Shown here piece after piece: positions 7,797-59,208 of a stretch of DNA of 64,000 nt. Each line of letters begins with the position of its first letter. Position 1 is the first letter of the stretch. The stretch is from Piper betle. Lineage: Eukaryota > Streptophyta > Magnoliopsida > Piperales > Piperaceae. The position numbers and the translations under genes are program-made. The stretch is from NCBI GenBank assembly GCA_033002965.1, contig JAURVB010001852.1, forward strand, positions 41,473-105,472. The letters run 5' to 3'. The notes under the pieces were generated by a model, which was not told the DNA's origin, did not search any database, and saw only the letters and a list, made by a program, of their open reading frames with translations.

Positions 7797-8434
7797 TATA
7801 ACACCCCAATTTCGGTTCACTTACAAACCGAATTAAAAATGTTATGATCGAGTCATCTTTAAAATTGTTTGTCTATAAGACTCGATTGATAAAATAGATC
7901 GAAAAAACCCACTTGATGTCATGGGAATGGAAGACATTGTTAAATACGCGTCAAAACACATAAAATATATGTAAAAGTAAAAAATAAATAAATGCGCCAA
8001 GCTCAAATGTATGGTAGCATTTATCTGTCCTTCCACCAAAGTCAGCTCAGGATTTGCAAGACGTATATATATTATATGAAAAGCGTTAGTAACTAGTGTT
8101 ACTGGTTCAAAAAATAACTAATACAATCTGGCAAATGGGTATTCTATTGCCCACGAAAACTTATAAACTTCAAGCATTTCCTTCACTGCAAAGTAAGCAA
8201 ACATATTTAAGCAATTATCGGCTCACATGCACGATTAATATTTATATTCATACATACAATGCTTATGCCCTCACATCTTCTATATTTTACCCACCACCGG
8301 AACTTGAGTGGCAAAAGGAACAGTTCAGTTCATGCCACAAATTCCAGAAATGTGTTGCGTTACACAGTATCCTCATACAGCACTACTTCAAGGTTTGAAG
8401 GAGTAATAGTGTTGTCCATACATATCTTCATCCC

Positions 8435-9589
8435 TGTTTGAATATTTTCAATGACGTGCAAGTATACACGGTCGAAACAAGTAATATAATGATAAATTGA
8501 GTATCGTCCCACAGGGAGATGAATTTCCTATAATTAATTAAAGAAAATAAAATGAGGAACAAAACAAAAATAACTGACTTAACTAAATCTAAGTAATAAC
8601 TTTAAATTAAAAGCAACGATTAAAATTATAAAACTCGTTCTAGAGTCGAATTTCCCTTAACATGAATTTAATCTTCATCAAATCTTACTCTTATCTTTTA
8701 TTCCCTCGGATTGTCGATCTAGGATAATTATATGACATGGTGGCTCCCGCTCCTTCATGCTTCTATTATTTTGCCTCAATTTCTACCTCCCGGTGATAAT
8801 TGATTAATCAACAAAATAATGCATTAAGATTTGCCTTACAATCGCATACGGTGTTGTGTATCTTCCGACCACAACGACAAACAAGTCAAAAGACTCGTCG
8901 TATGATGAATTACCAATGACTAATCTAATTAATTTCTCCCGAAATCTAATTAAACCTCGTGATCTAAGAAATAGGTGATCAATCTATTCTTAGCATTAAG
9001 AATATGATAATTCAAACATTCCGATTGAATAAAAGAGTAAAAGCTTGAAATAAATTCAATTAAATCATGTTAAGTTCCACTCTTCTCTAGAACGAAATAA
9101 AAGACTACTCCATAATAAAAATAGAAAACAATATAAAAAAGAAACTAATTTTTACTATGAAAGAGAAAGAAATTACAAAAACTAAAACTACTTCTTTCAC
9201 TACACTTCGAAGCCAAGAGATGAGATATGATAACAACAAATGACCACCCCTTTATATAGAAGTGGAGATACAAGAATTCGAAGAGAGTGTTCACAAATCG
9301 ACGTAGTCTAATTAATTATAATGTCCCTTCAAGTTTCCAACTGTTCGACTCCATTGAACACCATAAATTGTAGCCATTGGGTGGGGCCAAGTGTCATGAC
9401 CAATCAAATCCAAAGCTTAATTTATTCATCTTTTTCTGCATTGAAACACCAAAATTAAGCATATCTAATAAAATATTAATTAACTAGAATATAATGAAAA
9501 ATATCACTAAATTAATAATGTTTATACCCGAGAAGTACAAAATCATATTAAAAACATGGGTAAATATTATATATTTTAAACACTTAACA
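8435..9589 (-). repeat. 3' LTR of element C
   Basis: This 1155-bp LTR ends TGTTTG/CTTAACA on the plus strand. A TATA box (TATATAAA on the minus strand) lies at 9251-9258. Confidence 0.92.
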
Positions 9590-9606
9590 CACCCCCACAC
9601 TTAAAC
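9590..9606 (-). other. Polypurine tract of element C
   Basis: The minus strand reads AAGTGTGGGGGTG next to the 3' LTR, the G-rich PPT form familiar from Athila/Tat elements. A second copy-like motif, TTTAAGTTTGGGGGTG, lies internally at about 10962-10978. Confidence 0.75.
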
Positions 9607-10866
9607 TTTTGCACGTCCCGAGCAAAATATCATAACAAAGAAAATTTTACTACACAAAAATACTTAGTCCCCATTATGTTCTCATATGATTCTCAATCAA
9701 ACCCTCAAGAGTCAACAAGATGTCAATCAAATCAGAAATTCCCTTTCATCAATCACATCCAAAAGAAAGCTCTCTGTGTGTGTGTGATAGTCCATTGGCT
9801 TATCATTCTCATCTGCAACCAAGAGAATACAATCAAGTACATGCTTAAATATGTTTACCTTTCGCTCCCATCTCCACTAATATAGGTAATGCCAATTAAT
9901 GGAATCAATAGGTCTTTATAGGTTGTAACGGGGCCAGGGGCTAGGGACCAAAAATCGGATAAATAAGATAGAAAAATCAGAGGCTAATATGCACCCTAGA
10001 ATTAAAAATCCTTTCTAAATCCTGACATATATGTACAACAAATCCCCAAGCAATATGACACAAACTTCCTTAAATGTAGTATCGAGTTGACCCAATATAA
10101 GAACTAACTTTGCTTTGATTTTCCATTGACTACCTACTACTTTTTCTTTTTCTCTTTTCTTTCAAACCAGTGGAAGACTCTTGCTTCATCTTGTATTTAC
10201 TGGTGGAGGATCATTGCCTCATCTTTTTCTTTTCTTCTTTTTTTTTCTTTGTTTTTCTTCTCTCTTTTTTTTACAAAGCAAAGTGCCAGGATAGTCCACA
10301 CTATTCACTCAATCCCCACTCTATAACACGCAATGCCTTCCCCCTATACTACTCAAAATTTCATCCTTGTTAGAATTTGGAACGAATTCAAAACACTAGG
10401 GTGCTAGGACTCAAGCAGCAAGATATATTTTCAATAAAAAGGCCAAGGCTAAAATAAGGGTAATCAAACAAATATGTATAATAAAGGCCATGAAATTGTG
10501 TACAGAGGATAATTCATATTAGGTAGGCTTGAAGAAAGGCCCAGACTCATCAAAAAGAAATGCCTATATCATTTTCCATCTACATGGCAAGCCAAATATT
10601 TCGCCTCGAAAGTCGCTAGGGCAAATTCTAAAAGTCATGACCATCATGTACAATCCTTATTGCAAAACATTCATCGAAATCATCTAAACCAAAGGATTGT
10701 GAAAATAATATAAGGTAGAGAACCAACTCTCAAATGTAATCTTTTACTCAGTTCATCCCTCATATCATTTAATCAAGTTTTCTCAAGAAAGGTAAGACTA
10801 ATTCACATGTATCTATCATTGAACCAAGAGACTAAAATGCCATTGCATAATAAAATTTTTACACTA

Positions 10867-10908
<42 letters not shown>

Positions 10909-11149
10909 AAATCTAAACATGAGTCAAGAATGAACAATATGCATAAAATTAAGGCATCACCCCCAAACTTAAAGTAAGCATTGTCCTCAAAAATAAAAAT
11001 AAGGAGAAAGAAGTGAAAGAGAACTCCCTCAACCAATTAGTCGGTGGATGATTATCATGAATAACTGAATTTGCACTTGACCCATGCTACAAAATAAAAA
11101 AAATATTTAAAAAAATCTACAAATAAAAATAAACTTTTAAAATAAATCA
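9607..11149 (-). other. Non-coding 3' region of element C
   Basis: About 1.5 kb without coding motifs, typical of the long tail of Athila/Tat elements. It holds an (AT)n microsatellite at 10868-10909 and an internal PPT-like motif near 10970. Confidence 0.6.
10868..10909. repeat. (AT)n microsatellite
   Basis: A pure alternating AT run of about 42 bp within the tail of element C. Confidence 0.9.
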
Positions 11150-11388
11150 CTTGGGTTGCCTCCCAAGAAGCGCTTGGTTTAACATCTACAGCCCGACCAT
11201 CTTGATAATCTCCAAAATAGGTGGTACTTCAACTGATGGCAGCAATTTGTGGAATGGTAGATCTAAAGGTTCCACAACTCTAAATCTTCTAGGCTAGATC
11301 GGTTGCGAATCTAATACTTTAACCATTTCTTCCACATCAATATCTTCTTCACAAAGAGAATTTATGGCTTTATGTAATGAATCACTCA
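11150..11388 (-). pseudogene. Athila protease C-terminal end fused to distal pol tail
   Basis: The minus strand reads AINSLCEEDIDVEEMVKVLD, then PFHKLLPSVEVPPILE, then jumps to an ALLGRQPK-like motif. The first part continues the protease region beyond 12286 and stops just short of where reverse transcriptase should start (compare the plus-strand remnant at 57180-57600). The second is the short motif I associate with the end of Athila pol. The whole RT-RH-INT block is therefore deleted. One in-frame stop (QPI*PRR) is present. The true upstream neighbour, 12286 onward, is separated from this piece by the LTR-tRNA insertion. Confidence 0.75.
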
Positions 11389-11462
11389 ACCTTTGTAGTA
11401 TAGTGGTAAGTATTCCCCTTGTCACGCCGGTGACCTAGGTTCGATCCTCGGCAATGGCGCCA
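11389..11462 (+). tRNA. tRNA-Asp(GTC)-like pseudogene with 3' CCA, retro-copied primer
   Basis: The 74 nt align over their whole length to plant tRNA-Asp(GUC) as I remember it. The A box is TAGTATAGTGG (11396-11406), the anticodon region contains TTGTCACG, and the B box is GGTTCGATCC (11439-11448). The 3' end is GCAATGGCGCCA, where the final CCA (11460-11462) is not encoded in nuclear tRNA genes. The acceptor 5' half and anticodon stem are damaged (substitutions and a 1-nt loss), so it is not a functional tRNA. The CCA is followed by the spacer aaagt and then the LTR end TGTTCG (11468), exactly as the primer tRNA is joined to first-strand cDNA of this element. The tRNA strand equals the first-strand cDNA strand of the minus-oriented element. 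Confidence 0.88.
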
Positions 11463-11467
11463 AAAGT

Positions 11468-12285
11468 TGTTCGAATATTTTCAATGACGTGCAAGTATAC
11501 ACGATCAAAACAAGTAATATAATGATAAATCGAGTATCATCCCATAGGGAGATGAATTTCCTATAATTAACTAAAGAAATAAAATGAGGAGCAAAACAAA
11601 AATAACTGACATAACTAAATCTAAGTAATAACATTAAATTAAAAGCGAAGTCAAAATCATAAAACTCGTTCTAGAGTCAAATTTCCTTAACATGAATTTA
11701 ATCTTCATCAAATCTTACTCTTATCTTTTATTCCCTCGGATTGTCGATCTAGGATAATTATATGACATGGTGGCTCCCGCTCCTTGATGCTTCTATTATT
11801 TTGCCTCAATTTCTACCTCTTGGTAATAATTGATTAATCAACAAAATAATGCATTATGATTTGCCTTTGCAATCGCATACGGTGTTGTGTATCTCCAGAC
11901 CACAATGACAAACAAGTCAAAAGACTCGTCGTATGATGAATTACCAATGACTAATCTAATTAATTTTCTCCCGAAATCTAATTAAACCTCGTGATCTAAG
12001 AAATAGGTGATCAATCTGTTCTTAGCATTAAGAATATGATAATTCAAACATTTTGATTGAATAAAAGAGTAAAAGCTTGAAATAAATTAGATTAAATCAT
12101 GTTAAGCTTCACTCTTCTCTAAAACGAAACAAAAACTACTCCATAATAAAAATAGAAAAAAATATAAAAAAGAAACTAATTTGTACTATCAAAGAGAAAG
12201 AAATTACAAACACTAAAAACTACTTCTTTCACTACACTTCGAAGCCAAGAGATGAGATATGATAGCAACAAATGACCACCCCTTT
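11468..12285 (-). repeat. Internal LTR fragment (U5-R side) of element C family
   Basis: This 818-bp piece is collinear with the first 820 bp of the LTR at 8435, that is, the U5-R side when read in element orientation. It stops at ccccttt just before the LTR's TATA box. It is more diverged from the two terminal LTRs than they are from each other. CCTTTGTA occurs at both outer junctions of the tRNA-LTR unit (11390-11397 and 12281-12288). Confidence 0.9.
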
Positions 12286-13054
12286 GTACATTATTTTATC
12301 AGATATTTTAATTTTTGAACAATCATATGTTTCATCCGGGCAATTCATGGATTTAAAGATGTTGAATGTGACACAATCGTTGTTTACTCTAAGTGTAAGT
12401 TTTCCAGCAGCTACGTCAATTAATGTTCTCCCAGTTGCTAAGAAACCTCTCCCGACAATGAGTGGTATATTGTCATTCCTTCCTTCCATTTCAAGCACTA
12501 CAAAATCTGTAGGAAAGATAAACTTGTCAACCTTTATTAAAACATCTTCAATGTCTCCTTTAGGATATACCAATGATCGATCAGCCAACTGAAGTGTGAT
12601 GTTGGTAGGAGCAATATCCTTGATTCCTAACCTTTTGAAAAGAGAAAAAGGCATAAGATTAATTGCTAGAACCTAAGTCACATAAAGCATTACAATGGAC
12701 ATTTCCTCCAATTGAACGTGGAATCACAAATTTTCCTGGGTCTTTTATCTTAGGAGGTAGTTTTCTTTGGAGGACAACACTACATTCCTCTGTCATAGCT
12801 ACAACTTCATTGTAATATACTCTCCTTTTCTTTGCTAAAATATCCTTCAAGTATTTTACATAACTAGGCATCTGGTCAAGTGCTTCAGCAAAAGGTATGT
12901 TAATTTGTAATTTCTTAAATATATCAAGAAATTTTTTAAAATATTTTTCATCACTTTGTTTCCTCAATCTAGAAGGAAATGGTACCTTTTCTTCGACCTC
13001 ATCTACAAGTACTTCATCTTTTTCTTTCCCTTTGCTTCCGAGTAAGCTAACCAA
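12286..13054 (-). pseudogene. Athila-type aspartic protease region, interrupted
   Basis: Retropepsin of the Athila lineage. Minus-strand reading gives KVPFPSRLRKQ, then FKKLQINIPFAEALDQMPSY, VVLQRKLPPKIKDPGKF and NALCDLGSS (the active-site region, DLGAS in relatives). After a 1-nt frameshift near 12660 it continues PFSLFKRLG, LQLADRS, VLIKVDKFIFPTDFVVLEME and PLIVGRGFLATGRTLIDVA, then SDKIMYKG at the insertion point. The last 16 residues of the distal open frame (to 12232) are LTR sequence. The enzyme would normally process Gag-Pol. Here it is split by the tRNA-LTR unit and frameshifted, so it is inactive. Confidence 0.85.
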
Positions 13055-13400
13055 TGTATTGGGTTCACGTTCGTTGCTAGGCTTATCATCTTTTTCCCTA
13101 ACTTAATTGGGTTGAACTGGTTCTTGTAAAGTAATACCAGTCCAGGTTGTTATAGCTTTGCAATGCTCTTGACCATCATTCCTTGGTTGTTCTTATTGGC
13201 TAGGAAGTACATGCTTGGGTCGCTCACTTGGTTCCTTGTTTAATTGCACCATAACTTGTTGCATAAATTGTTGTTGTTGCCGATTCTGCATAAATTATTG
13301 CATAGTTTGTTGCATGAAATTGAACATTTGGATCAAATCCGGTTGTTGTGGTTGAAAAGAAAGTGAAGGAGGTCGAGAATGTGATGGTGGTGGTGGTGGA
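13055..13400 (-). pseudogene. gag-protease linker of element C
   Basis: On the minus strand, PSER.KHVLPSQ, GQEHCKAITTWTGITLQEPV and KPSNEREPN read between gag and protease, with stops. The same linker is found on the plus strand at 51600-51915 in remnant F. Confidence 0.7.
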
Positions 13401-14560
13401 TTAGTGGGAACAGCAACCAGCTTGTGGAGAATTATTCCATGAAAAGTTGGGGTTATTGCGCCAGCCCGCATTGTAGGTGTTGGAATAGCGATTGTTGTTT
13501 ATATTATAGTTGCCTACGTAGTTAACTTGATCTGTTGTACATTGACCTGTAGAATGTCCTTGTCCACACCATTCACACCTTGGCTCCACAGCCTTAACAT
13601 GTCTCTGTATATTAAGAATTTGAACTTGATTAGCTAAAGCACTAACCTGAGTAGATAAAGTAGTAAGTGCATCTAATTCTAAAACTCCGGTAGTCCTTCT
13701 TGGATGCCTTTCTTGTGTGGCATGATGGTTGCTAGGAACCATTAATTCTAGCAATTGGAAAGCTTCATGTGTGCTCTCCCTAAGAAATGATCCATTGGCC
13801 GCCGCATCAACTATGTTGTTTGTAAGCCCCAACAACCCGTTATAAAAAGTTTGGAGTTGCATCCATCTTTCTATACCATGGTTGGGACACTTTTTTAACA
13901 ATTCTTTATATCTTTCCCATGCCTCAAAGAGAGACTCACCATCAAACTGCAAAAAAGATAAAATTTTATTACGTAATCTAGCAGTTTTAGAAGGTCGAAA
14001 ACATTTTAACAAAAATTTTTAGATAATTCATCCCAACTGGTTATTGAATCTAATGATGACAACCATTCTTTCGCACTTCCTATTAATGAGAATGGAAATA
14101 AGCGAAGGCGGAGAACATCATCAAAGACACCTGGTTGCTTATACATATCACAAACCGATAAGAAATCCATGATATGCCTATTAGGATTTTCATTAGGCAA
14201 CCCACTAAATTGTCCTATGGTTTGTAACATGTTAAATAAAACTGGTTTGAGCTCGAAGTGGGTCACATCCACCGGTGGTGCAATAATACTAGGTTGTAAC
14301 CCTCTTGCAAGAGGTACAACCCAATCTTGGATTGCCCCATTGTCATCATTAGCTACTGCTACAATTGGTGGAAATGGAGGCATTTGTTGTTGTTGTGGGT
14401 CCATGGCTTCTTCTTCTATGGCTTCTTGTGCACTTCTTCCAGCGGCACGCAAGTTTCTCAAAGTCCTTTCAATCTCTAGATCATAAGAAAACAAAGGTGA
14501 CTGCACCAATCGATGCATAAACAAATGATAACAAATAAATGATATCAAGGAAGAAGGCAA
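13401..14560 (-). pseudogene. Athila gag (frameshifted)
   Basis: Capsid/nucleocapsid protein of the element. The upstream frame (14560-14006) has a DLEIERTLRNLR segment, MDPQQQQ and the capsid core FELKPVLFNMLQTIGQFSGL ... MDFLSVCDMYK ... LFPFSLIGSAKEWL. A 1-nt slip in a run of A and T near 14010 moves the reading to the second frame (14012-13401). That frame holds FRPSKTARLRNKI, FDGESLFEAWERYKELLKKC, FYNGL and the zinc knuckle CEWCGQGHSTGQC (about 13538-13577, all four C/C/H/C ligands present), followed by an Asn-rich tail. Apart from the slip it is well preserved, in keeping with a young element supplying or mimicking Gag. Confidence 0.88.
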
Positions 14561-14671
14561 TGATATAGTTTTTTTTCTTTAAAAATAATAATAATAATCA
14601 GACACTAAAATCTAAAAAGAAAAGAAAAACACTCAAAATTCTAATCCTAAATTAATTAAGAAAATTCGGTC

Positions 14672-14689
14672 TCCCCAGCAACAGCGCCA
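14672..14689 (-). other. Primer binding site, tRNA-Asp (element C)
   Basis: The minus strand reads TGGCGCTGTTGCTGGGGA, six bases after the 5' LTR. It is nearly identical to the Asp-tRNA PBS TGGCGCCGTTGCCGGGGA used by Athila/Tat elements. Beyond these 18 nt the sequence does not resemble the tRNA, unlike 11389-11462. Confidence 0.9.
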
Positions 14690-14695
14690 AAAACT

Positions 14696-15850
14696 TGTTC
14701 GAATATTTTCAATGACGTGCAAATATACACGGTCAAAATAAGTAATATAATGATAAAATTGAGTATCGTCCCACAGGGAGTTGAATTTCCTATAATTAAT
14801 TAAAGAAAATAAAATGAGGAACAAAACAAAAATAACTGACTTAACTAAATCTAAGTAATAACTTTAAATTAAAAGCAACGTTAAAATTATAAAACTCGTT
14901 ATAGAGTCGAATTTCCCTTAACATGAATTTAATCTTCATCAAATCTTACTCTTATCTTTTATTCCCTCGGATTGTCGATCTAGGATAATTATATGACATG
15001 GTGGCTCCCACTCCTTCATGTTTCTATTATTTTGCCTCAATTTCTACCTCCCGGTGATAATTGATTAATCAACAAAATAATGTATTAAGAATTGCCTTAC
15101 AATCGCATACGGTGTTGTGTATCTTCCGACCACAACGACAAACAAGTCAAAAGACTCGTCGTATGATGAATTATCAATAACTAATCTAATTAATTTCTCC
15201 CGAAATCTAATTAAACCTCGTGATCTAAGAAATAGGTGTTCAATCTATTCTTAGCATTAAGAATATGATAATTCAAACATTCCGATTGAATAAAAGAGTA
15301 AAAGCTTGAAATAAATTCAATTAAATCATGTTAAGTTCCACTCTTCTCTAGAACGAAATAAAAGACTACTCCATAATAAAAATAGAAAACAATATAAAGA
15401 AGGAACTAATTTTTATTATGAAAGAGAAAGAAATTACAAAAACTAAAACTACTTCTTTCACTAAACTTCGTAGCCAAGAGATGAGATATAATAACAACAA
15501 ATGACCACCCCTTTATATAGAAGTGGAGATAGAAGAAGTCGAAGAGAGTGTTCACAAATCGACGTAGTCTAATTAGTTATAATGTCCATTCAAGTTTCCA
15601 ACTGTTCGACTCCATTGAACACCATAACTTGTAGCCATTGGGTGGGGCCAAGTGTCATGACCAATCAAATCTAAAGCTTAATTTATTCATCTTTTTCTGC
15701 ATTGAAACACCAAAATTAAGCATATCTAATAAAATATTAATTAACTAGAATATAATGAAAAATATCACTAAATTAATAATGTTTATACCTGAGAAGTACA
15801 AAATTATATTAAAAACATGGGTAAATATTATATATTTTAAACGCTTAACA
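14696..15850 (-). repeat. 5' LTR of element C
   Basis: A 1155-bp LTR with TATA box TATATAAA on the minus strand at 15512-15519. It differs from the 3' LTR by only scattered substitutions and indels. Confidence 0.92.
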
Positions 15851-16405
15851 GTCCCACTCATTCTCTTGTTCGTGAAATCTAGAAAAATATGCATACTTAT
15901 ATAATAGGCTAAGGAAAGAGGCTTGTATCATAAATTTCTTGAGCTTAAGTTCGAAAACCAATAAAGGATCTCATCCTTGTAGTTTTATTAAACACGTGCA
16001 GAAAACACGGCTAAATAGCTCGACATCGCAGAGGTCCGACAAAACACCACTGATGCTACCCCATGTATAAAAAATGACTAAACACTACGCGCAAGGAGTC
16101 AAGCAGAGAGGGAGAGTTCTATGGACCTGTGATCCATGCTCCAAGCGTATCTGCACATCTACGGCGAGCTCAAACTCCAAGACCTACATCAGAACCCATT
16201 GCTAAGTAAAAAATAATATCTCTATATGATGCATTTTCGTGGTGTGTGCTCACATTATCAATACAACCTAATAAAGAAAATAGTGCTAACCAGGCTACAA
16301 CTAAACACCTGGCACGCAAATTGAGACATAATCATAATTAATATACAAATAAATACACACATAGATAATTAGGTAAATAATAAATACATAAACAAACAAA
16401 TAGAT

Positions 16406-56661: not shown

Positions 56662-57600
56662 AATGTAGTGTTGTCCTCCAAAGAAAACTACCTCCTAAGA
56701 TGAAAGACCCAGGCAAATTTGTGATTCAATGTTCAATTGAGGAAATGTTCATTGTAATGCTTTATGTGACTTAGGTCTAGCATAAATCTTATGCCTTTTT
56801 CTGTTTTCAAAAGGGTAGGGGTCCAGGACATTGCTCCTACCAACATCACACTCTAGTTGGCTGACCAGTCATTGGTATATCCTAAAGGAGTCATTGAAGA
56901 TATTCTAATAAAGGTTGACAAGTTTACCTTTCCTGCAGATTTTGTAGTGCTAAAAATGGAAGGAAGGAATGACAATATACCACTCATTGTTAGGCGAGGT
57001 TTCTTGGCAACTGGAGAACACTGATTGACGTAGCCACTGGAAAACTTACACTTAGGGTAAACAATGAATATGTCACATATGACATATTTAAATCCATGAC
57101 TTGCTTGGGTGCAACATATAATTATTCTAGAATTGAACTATTTGATAAAATAATGTACAAAGGGGATCAGTTGAGCGATTCATTACATAAGGCCATAAAT
57201 TCTCTTTGTGAAGAAGATACAGATGTGGAAGAGATGGTTAAAGTATTAGATTTACAACCAATCTTGCCTAGGAGATTTAGAGTTGTAAAAACCTCAAATC
57301 TACCAGTCCATAGATTGCTGACATCAATTGAAGTACCACCTATTTTGGAGCTAAAGCAACTTCCAAAACATCTCAAGTATACTTTCTAAGGGCCTAATGA
57401 CACTCTTCCCATTATTATTTCTTTAGAGCTAACTATGTTACGGGAATAAAAGCTGATTAGAATACTAAAGGATCACAAGTCAGTTATTGCTTGGACTATA
57501 GCAGACATAAAAGGCATGATCCATCCTTTTGTATGCATAGGATCAACTTAGTGGATGGATGTAGTCCAAATTTAGAGAACCAATGATGACTTAACCCCAA
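56662..57600 (+). pseudogene. Athila protease and RT start, remnant F part 2
   Basis: Resumes at CSVVLQRKLPPKMKDPGKFV. It then has a broken active-site region, LIDVATGKLTLRVNNEYVTY, DKIMYKG, HKAINSLCEEDTDVEEMVKV and VPPILELKQLPKHLKYTF (57096-57389). The start of reverse transcriptase follows (SLELTMLRE, HKSVIAWTIADIKGMIHPF). This copy shows the uninterrupted DKIMYKG-to-INSLCEE region that is split by the tRNA-LTR unit in element C. Stops and frameshifts throughout. Confidence 0.82.
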
Positions 57601-58240
57601 CATGAAAGAAGTGGTCAACAAGGAGATTATCAAGATAGTCAGGCTATAGGCGTTAAATCAAGCGCTTCTTGGGAGGCAACCCAAGTGATTTCTTTTAAAA
57701 GTTTATTTTTATTTGTAGATTTTTTTAGCATTTCTTTTTATTTTATAGCATGGGTCAAGTCCAAATTCATCATTTACGATAATCATCCACCGACTTATTG
57801 GTTAAGGGAGTCCTCTTGCACTTCTCTTTATTTTTCTAACATGGAGGGCAATGTTTATTTTAAGTGTGAGGGGATGCCTTAATTTTGTGCATATTGTTCA
57901 TGCTCGACTCATGTTTAGATTTAGATATGCATATTATATATAGTATAGTTTAGTGTAAAAATTTTATTATGCAACAATATTTAGTCTCTTAGTTCAATGA
58001 TAGCTACATGTGAATTAGTCTTACCTTTCTTGCGAAAACTTGATTAATTTATATGAGGGATGAAATAAGTAAATGATTACATTCGAGAGCTTCTCTACCT
58101 TATATTATTTTCACATTCCTTTGGTTTAGATGAATTCAATGAATGTTATGCAATACGAAAAATCCTTTAATCAAAGGAATTTGCATGACGGCTTTGGTTG
58201 TTTTAGGTTTGTCCTAGCAATTTAGATTCATCTTCAATTA
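57601..58240 (+). other. Distal pol tail and 3' region of remnant F
   Basis: Contains the KRFLGRQPK motif (57655-57685), then the non-coding tail with a TTTTAAGTGTGAGGGGATG PPT-like motif (about 57860). It is homologous to 11160-10600 of element C (opposite strand). As in C, most of pol is missing between the RT start and this tail. Confidence 0.68.
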
Positions 58241-58259
58241 AAGTGTTTTGGCAAAAACT

Positions 58260-59208
58260 TGTTTGATTAATTCAATAACATGTAAGTATACATAGTCAAA
58301 ACAAGTAATATAATGATGAACTTAAATATCGTCCCATAAAGAGATGAATTTCATTAAATTAATTTTAAAAAATAAAATTAAGAACAAAACAAAAACATTC
58401 GACTTAACTAAATCTAAGTAATAACTTTAAATTAAAGAAAAATTTATAATGATAAATCTTGTTCTAGAGTCGAATTTCCCTTGACATGAATTTGATATTC
58501 ATTACATCTTACTCTTATCTTTTATTCTCTTGAATTGCTGATTTAGGAGAATTATATGACATGATGGCTCGCCACTCCTTCATGCATCTATTATTTCGCC
58601 TCAATTTCTACCTCTCGATGATAATTTATAAATCAACAAAATAATGCACTAAGATTTGCCTTACAATTGCATACAGTGTTTTCTATCTCCTGACCACAAC
58701 AACAAACAAGTTAAAAGACTTGTCGTATGATGAATTATCAATGACTAATTTAACTGATTTCTACCGAAATCTAATTAAACCTCATGATCTAAGTAATAGG
58801 TAATCAATCTACTATTAGCATTAAGAACATGATAATTTAAACAATCTGATTGAATAAAAGAGTAAGAGGTTGAAATGAATTTACTTAAAACATGTTAAGT
58901 TCCATTCTTCTCTAGAACGAACTAAAGGATTACCCCATAATAAAAATAGAAAACATTATAAAGAAGAAACTACTTTTCATTATGAACGGAAAAGAATTTC
59001 AAAAACTAGAACTACTTCTAAGACAAGATTTGAGATATCTCAAACAACAAATGACCACCCTTTTATATAGAAGAAGAGATGGCCATTAGGTACATGAATT
59101 CAAGAAAGGTGTTCACAAATCACGTAATCTAATTAATTTTAGTGTCCAATCAAGTTTGCAACTCGTCGACTTGCTCAACCAAGACACATTGTATACTTTA
59201 AACACTTA
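58260..59208 (-). repeat. LTR of the C family in inverted orientation to remnant F
   Basis: Reads TGTTTGATTAATTCAATAACATG onward, homologous to the plus-strand reading of C's LTRs. It is preceded by the PBS-proximal bases ttggcaaaaact. For plus-oriented F the 3' LTR should have the opposite orientation and no PBS next to it. Diverged and somewhat shortened (949 bp). Confidence 0.78.

Follow-up and report, generated by a model that had tools for sequence, protein, structure and literature searches.

The elementary error described here, the reverse copying of a tRNA next to viral DNA, is already known from MMLV and HIV. An MMLV circle (Colicelli and Goff, 1986, as described in PMC12220202) carries tRNA-Gly between its LTRs with four 5′ tRNA bases missing. 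The locus from Piper betle reported here resembles it in having a tRNA reverse-copied next to retroelement DNA, and its tRNA copy likewise starts at nucleotide 5. According to that account, however, the circle was cloned, unintegrated and due to a spurious primer, whereas in Piper betle the primer is cognate and the products are found in the germline, stem from many events and include palindromes. The same source presents an HIV provirus with an adjacent tRNA-Gly copy lacking five 5′ bases, in which, as here, CCA adjoins U5 bases that are usually lost on integration. In that presentation the provirus differs in being a single cell-line clone with a non-cognate tRNA and no target duplication around the tRNA, and its authors also propose another origin. 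In HIV-1, plus-strand strong-stop synthesis normally ends before m1A58, copying of an unmodified primer proceeds as far as its 5′ end, and a methyltransferase mutation extends synthesis past A58, as stated in the relevant sections of PMC13191261. This read-through without m1A58, studied there in vitro and in human cells, is the intermediate that we propose below; lasting chromosomal products, unlike here, are not described in those sections. tRNA sequences also lie within Helenus TRIM elements, but the account of them in PMC10886601 concerns a tRNA promoter inside the LTR which is attributed to SINE insertion, is not related to the primer and belongs to propagating families. Tailless tRNA retropseudogenes are reverse-copied tRNAs in the genome as well; the part of PMC5322556 that deals with them differs from our case in describing 3′-truncated copies attributed to LINE1 and no LTR fusion. 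Literature searches, made largely without subscription journals, recognised by title or abstract no chromosomal primer-tRNA/LTR fusions in plants, and with search terms that did not name palindromes no description of palindromic LTR–tRNA–LTR products was found.

The window analysed here is a stretch of 64,000 nucleotides from Piper betle (contig JAURVB010001852.1, positions 41,473 to 105,472 of the forward strand). It contains a 7.4-kb LTR element on the minus strand (8435–15850) with an insert in its pro region. The two LTRs comprise 1155 bp each and are 97.4% identical to each other (BLAST); the element ends in TG..CA, and its flanks ATCCC/GTCCC form a 5-bp duplication with one mismatch. A gag domain (PF03732) and a protease with relatives in eudicots place it with the Ty3/gypsy type. 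Its assignment to the Athila clade is putative and follows an earlier note on this stretch. Among the listed frames of the element no RT or integrase frame was recognised, and because of this the copy is probably non-autonomous. The features are as follows, each with its coordinates in the window and its strand.

8435–9589, minus: 3′ LTR (BLAST), with the flank ATCCC at 8430–8434
11390–11397, plus: left copy of CCTTTGTA, of which TTGTA is also part of the tRNA
11393–11462, plus: tRNA-Asp(GTC) copy, nucleotides 5–75 including CCA (alignment; host genes)
11463–11467, plus: spacer AAAGT from CCA to the LTR end, with the counterpart AAAACT at 14690–14695 at the 5′ LTR
11468–12285, minus: partial LTR of 818 bp, which begins with the U5 end and breaks off in the TATA box (BLAST)
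12232–12672, minus: protease frame of 146 amino acids, shortened by the insert; plant relatives often carry PF13650
12281–12288, plus: right copy of CCTTTGTA, overlapping CCCCTTT
13401–14018, minus: gag frame (Retrotrans_gag, PF03732, E = 4.9e-9)
14672–14689, minus: normal 18-nt PBS, complementary to the 3′ end of tRNA-Asp at 16 of 18 positions
14696–15850, minus: 5′ LTR (BLAST), with the flank GTCCC at 15851–15855
56662–57350, plus: relative without insert, its pro site uninterrupted at 57150–57180 (sequence comparison)

A motif scan found the insert-derived tail of the protease frame in none of the 120 protease relatives listed of 429 matches. At 57622–59207 a related plus-strand element runs into an inverted-orientation LTR from about 58251, which keeps its spacer (GGCAAAAACT) untrimmed, as though this were another aberrant joining product from which the tRNA part has gone. 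A sub-threshold Rfam match to SNORD45 at 11043–11109 (20.9 bits, gathering threshold 42) is most likely due to chance.

The earlier note had described a whole tRNA-Asp from 11389 with intact A and B boxes and a terminal CCA at 11462. The CCA is in place and both boxes, in what we take to be their usual motifs, are present, but the copy starts at nucleotide 5 of the tRNA, at 11393; the bases before this position can be derived from pro, because CCTTTGTA recurs at 12281–12288. Aligned with a tRNA-Asp reference that the host genes bore out, the copy matches at 64 of 70 bases and has one 1-nt deletion. Nucleotides 5–75 of tRNA-Asp(GTC) gave an alignment score of 105. The runner-up in the window scored 26 and lies in the PBS region; with tRNA scores elsewhere in the window of at most 26, a Helenus-type tRNA promoter in both LTRs was not found. 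The 18-nt PBS, which is located where the note had placed it, explains just the last 18 tRNA bases. PBS and insert each match the canonical 18 nt at 16 positions, with mismatches at different places. The 57 nt upstream of the PBS part scored 79 compared with a maximum of 27 in 20,000 shuffles, which bears out the view that the primer tRNA was copied past A58. An Infernal-type check as suggested by the note gave a mixed picture: RF00005 aligned end to end at 11389–11459 but below threshold (21.9 bits, E = 0.17), ARAGORN reported no tRNA gene in the window, and the RNA fold of 11389–11462 was no better than that of shuffled sequences (z = −0.08), as for a decayed copy. Here the direct alignment is decisive.

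The CCA is followed by AAAGT and the 818 bp of LTR from its U5 end, just as had been noted. In element sense the partial LTR extends from LTR nucleotide 337 or 344 to the end and stops within the TATA box (TATATAAAGGGG). Its identity to the two element LTRs is 94.5% and 92.2%, below their mutual 97.4%. Transcription is expected to start 25–35 nt after a TATA box. The expected start thus falls about 20 nt inside the insert, and therefore the insert is not an exact U5–R copy. Junction homology amounts to 7 nt on the LTR side, where CCCCTTT (12279–12285) is common to LTR and pro as claimed before, and to 5 nt on the tRNA side; the chance of such homologies at random breakpoints is 0.0008 and 0.003 respectively. 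Both outer junctions had been assigned to the same protease site, which agrees with the presence of CCTTTGTA on both sides, but in comparison with the intact pro of the relative at 57150–57180 seven target bases (TGATCCC) are lost at the left junction.

Eight tRNA-Asp genes were found in the host genome, six identical to the reference (72/72) and two with 71/72. None of the eight encodes CCA, so that the earlier argument from a post-transcriptionally added CCA holds. The AAAGT spacer between CCA and the TG of the LTR is without counterpart at the integrated U5 end of the element and represents the part normally trimmed at integration. Both CCA and spacer would be lacking if an LTR had inserted next to a tRNA gene, and the window copy must therefore be a copy of the primer; the copied tRNA is also of the element's own primer type (PBS, 16/18). 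In comparison with the eight host genes, the marks of a nuclear tRNA gene (a 5′ leader, no encoded CCA and a T-run soon after G73) were not found. Instead, a non-encoded CCA abuts untrimmed U5-side bases and the tRNA is copied upstream of A58. We regard it as confirmed that the window contains a reverse-copied primer tRNA joined to an LTR.

The genome to which the window belongs (527 Mb, 11,211 contigs) was searched with bases 1–172 of the insert as query. As 40 out of 1,744 first-look candidates were scored, the counts given here are lower bounds. There were 45 matches. In 19 of them, the window included, the match begins no later than query base 25; the 26 that start at query base 52 or later were left out of the fusion count. 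All 18 similarity loci examined (18/18) have a tRNA-Asp copy joined to U5. A pattern extending 8 bases past the PBS with at most 3 mismatches gave 22 matches, compared with none for the reversed pattern; 12 were already known and 10 were new, including L053, whose LTR is a distant relative (59%). A tRNA-body pattern gave 16 matches, comprising the eight host genes, seven known fusions and L089, a rearranged case with tRNA nucleotides 4–69 between U5 and antisense gag and without CCA. In total, the tRNA 3′ side is joined to U5 at at least 29 loci including the window, to which L089 is added. The earlier note had proposed a search for tRNA–LTR junctions but had not foreseen about 30 fusions, and none of the others has the junction of the window. 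In a viral contig collection the tRNA-Asp and junction patterns had no matches; five bacterial loci matching the tRNA 3′-end pattern in the genome contig collection were left out of the analysis.

The tRNA 5′ ends of the fusions range from nucleotide 1 to 43, and the upstream 60 nt at equal offset are at most 40% identical between any two of the thirty tRNA-Asp loci. The CCA is intact in 24 of 29 tRNA-Asp fusions. At position 58 every one of the 38 copies scored (29 Asp and 9 Met) has A, a count that is biased by the pattern-found Asp loci, which needed most of the A58 region to match, while the 18 similarity-found loci did not. Two copies match the tRNA without a difference, over 71 and 73 nt, and others diverge by up to about 15%, so the fusion events differ in age; among 108 substitutions, 84 are C>T or G>A. 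As judged from these sequences, the primer tRNA appears to have been copied repeatedly, whole or nearly so, into retrotransposon DNA and then inserted in Piper betle. Since L028, L032 and L044 have G at position 20 of the tRNA, as do two of the eight host genes, both tRNA-Asp gene variants seem to have served as primers. L018 and L019 join within a few nucleotides of the same gag site and may reflect a hot spot or one diverged event.

The PBS-extension test was also performed with tRNA-iMet and gave 45 matches, compared with none in the control; 15 of these loci were classified. Eight of them carry a tRNA-iMet copy with intact CCA that starts between nucleotides 7 and 36, and in these TGTAA..., presumably marking a U5 end from a different LTR family, begins within 2 nt of the CCA. 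In five others the match is limited to the final 30 nt, L074 is a less clear copy, and L075 is a genuine tRNA gene (72/72) without CCA. At L061 (C9797:29486), which has several further arm copies, a tRNA-iMet copy (62/62) lies central in an inverted repeat, and we regard it as the Met counterpart of the LTR–tRNA–LTR palindromes described below. L067, L068, L069 and L073, together with more than 20 of the 45 matches, belong to one element family in which the sequence adjoining the iMet PBS continues to resemble tRNA-iMet some 11 nt past the 18-nt PBS, mostly with T at the A58 position. This recalls the lentiviral primer over-extension sequence treated in part of PMC13191261.

The architecture of the tRNA-Asp fusions was mapped piecewise against the window element, which gave the following classes.

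LTR–tRNA–inverted LTR: L020, L021, L023, L026, L027, L037, L049
The same, shortened or rearranged: L032, L038, L052
Element 3′ end in sense orientation, fused to tRNA and inverted LTR at the PPT or no more than 30 nt from it: L014, L015, L017, L044
One-orientation joins to gag or leader: L018 (assigned by eye), L019, L022, L030
One-orientation joins to pro: the window, L047
One-orientation join to the 3′ side: L028
One-orientation join to integrase: L016 (PF00665)
One-orientation joins to LTR: L024, L045
Left partner not recognised: L025, L029, L031, L039, L053

In 19 of the 28 fusions other than the window and L089, the LTR adjoining the tRNA reaches LTR nucleotides 1–3, that is, the 5′ end of plus-strand strong-stop DNA. 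It does not do so in L014, L020, L022, L025, L030, L032, L038, L039 and L053, some of which are cut by the locus end. L037 shows the tRNA complement up to the anticodon arm followed by tRNA in sense orientation, as in a snap-back. L030 (flanks AATTT/AGTTT) consists of leader to 302, LTR 834–1154, spacer, tRNA complement to nucleotide 12 and gag from 283, and repeats the plan of the window insert in another element. Short homologies occur at several tRNA junctions, e.g. AAGT in L017, L021 and L045. The fusions of the window (12281–12290) and of L047 (C9640) land at the same pro purine run, ACAAAGGGG. Because of this coincidence AAAGGGG may be a preferred landing site and perhaps, speculatively, a second (central) polypurine tract.

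Both outer ends are readable in nine molecules. Four have TG..CA ends with exact 5-bp target duplications (L021 GTGAC, L024 CTCAT, L027 CCAGT, L049 CCGTG), three have a duplication with one mismatch (L026, L030 and the window) and two, L037 and L047, have none. For the left end of L044 an exact-pattern search gave no match, and the stretches examined for the left ends of L015 and L017 and for the far end of L016 contained no LTR. L028 is located in a tandem, and L029, bounded by a regular LTR end at one side and by the tRNA at the other, shows no clear duplication. LTR molecules inserted by integrase are marked by TG..CA ends and target duplications of 4–6 bp. For comparison, the figure given in PMC6317226 for a 5-bp target duplication is 93.4% of the plant elements considered there. 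Since target duplications flank whole chimeras, at least several palindromes and one direct product had formed prior to integration. Within a palindrome the arms are 90.1–98.9% identical (the 38-bp comparison in L032 was left out), and in all six loci cross-compared they are closer to each other than to any other compared locus, which makes each palindrome an event of its own. Arm identities and best identities to other loci are:

L023, 90.1% versus at most 83.2%; L026, 91.5% versus 83.2%
L021, 97.1% versus 93.0%; L027, 97.1% versus 93.8%
L037, 97.4% (117 bp only) versus 93.8%; L049, 96.7% versus 89.8%

Taken together, plus-strand read-through of the primer tRNA-Asp, followed by mis-transfer and integration, is a likely explanation of the fusions. 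Plus-strand synthesis would fail to stop at A58 and copy the primer to, or nearly to, its 5′ end, giving an over-extended plus-strand strong-stop DNA of the form U3–R–U5–spacer–complement of tRNA. Its 3′ end would no longer match the PBS and would be transferred wrongly via short homology. Fold-back on itself or a sister would give the palindromic LTR–tRNA–LTR products, copying by a plus strand arriving at the PPT the internal–PPT–tRNA–inverted LTR products, and a jump to minus-strand gag, pro, integrase or LTR the direct joins, all of which integrase could then insert. For the window, the plus strand under synthesis would have switched at AAAGGGG from pro to the U3 of a co-packaged, diverged cDNA, continued through R, U5 and the tRNA, and switched back into pro at TACAA, near its departure point. 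For the window and L030 alike this amounts to a putative round trip, outward into the U3–R–U5 end of a minus strand capped by tRNA and back to a point shortly behind the departure. The structures of the sequences, their separate junctions and the target duplications are observed; from them we infer the order of the transfers, the co-packaging and an under-methylated primer. Copying of m1A is expected to cause misreading. Because A58 reads A in 38 of 38 copies, an under-methylated primer would be the preferred cause of the read-through.

The lack of duplications in L037 and L047 and the left end of L044, for which the exact-pattern search gave no match, speak against this explanation, and the 7-nt loss at the return point of the window is not accounted for by a round trip. 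For the window insert, entry into an element that was already integrated is also conceivable, since the target duplication, with one mismatch, belongs to its host element only. It would then have been captured during break repair in the resident element, from a primer-tipped cDNA of another family copy. The divergence of the insert LTR from both element LTRs, the small target deletion with microhomologies and the lack of a second junction copy among the scored matches agree with such a capture, which we nevertheless think improbable in view of the same round-trip plan in L030, a second element, and of an insert tRNA that is, if anything, older than the integration. The age of the insert was estimated from CG/CHG transitions, of which a first test counted 5/24 for the insert versus 2/142 (P = 0.0007), suggesting an insert older than the integration of the element. 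Calibrated on the palindromes, whose tRNA and arms are taken as one age, the test gave P = 0.04 (bootstrap mean 0.06), and in the PBS, for which a young age is expected, changes were found at 2 of 18 bases, a proportion not different from the 6 of 70 in the tRNA (P = 0.66). With the calibrated P = 0.04 and no second junction copy seen, we withdrew the idea that the insert predates the last transposition of the element. For the same reasons the earlier statement that the insert was amplified with the element is unsupported, though not disproved, among the 40 scored candidates.

According to the earlier note, the insert was tRNA–U5–R strong-stop cDNA, i.e. minus-strand strong-stop DNA on its RNA primer, captured in pro through microhomology or insertion, the tRNA becoming DNA in the process. 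The insert does end no more than about 20 nt from where R is expected to start and has microhomology at both ends, but it overshoots this start, the LTR of 19 of 28 siblings continues to nucleotides 1–3, and palindromes with integrase duplications are not predicted, so that we hold this origin to be still more doubtful than break repair. A genomic tRNA gene beside an independent LTR, or an assembly artefact, is very improbable: the identity of the tRNA would fit a gene and false palindromes are a known sequencing artefact, but CCA is absent from the eight host genes, the spacer is untrimmed, and the palindrome arms, unlike artefacts, differ by 1–10% and show target duplications. A tRNA-headed SINE-like element with an LTR-derived body can practically be dismissed despite its tRNA head followed by an unrelated body and its 8-bp flanking repeat, as pol III transcription would terminate at TTTT (11478), 16 nt past the tRNA, the 30 loci share no body end or junction, and neither a fixed 3′ end with an A-rich or simple tail nor a copy family was found.

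Returning to plus-strand read-through, we lean slightly towards a wider reading, in which whole-primer read-through would be a regular branch of replication here. Via primers without m1A58 it would yield unrecognised palindromes that are mobilised by integrase and form datable single-molecule records of a failed second strand transfer. Such a palindrome, originating by snap-back of over-extended plus-strand strong-stop DNA, would be bounded by identical U3 ends and have at its centre a tRNA that includes pol III boxes. The stop at the methylated A58 is known mainly from HIV-1 work, and the germline fusions show, event by event, the outcome of its failure in plant retrotransposons: where the over-extended end went, how it found homology and that integrase accepted the product can be read from them. 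As each event can be dated by the divergence of tRNA and arms, any assembly can be used to measure the rate of primer read-through over time. For annotation this means that head-to-head LTR pairs, CCA-ended 'tRNA pseudogenes' and odd internal LTRs may be the result of one misdirected strand transfer.
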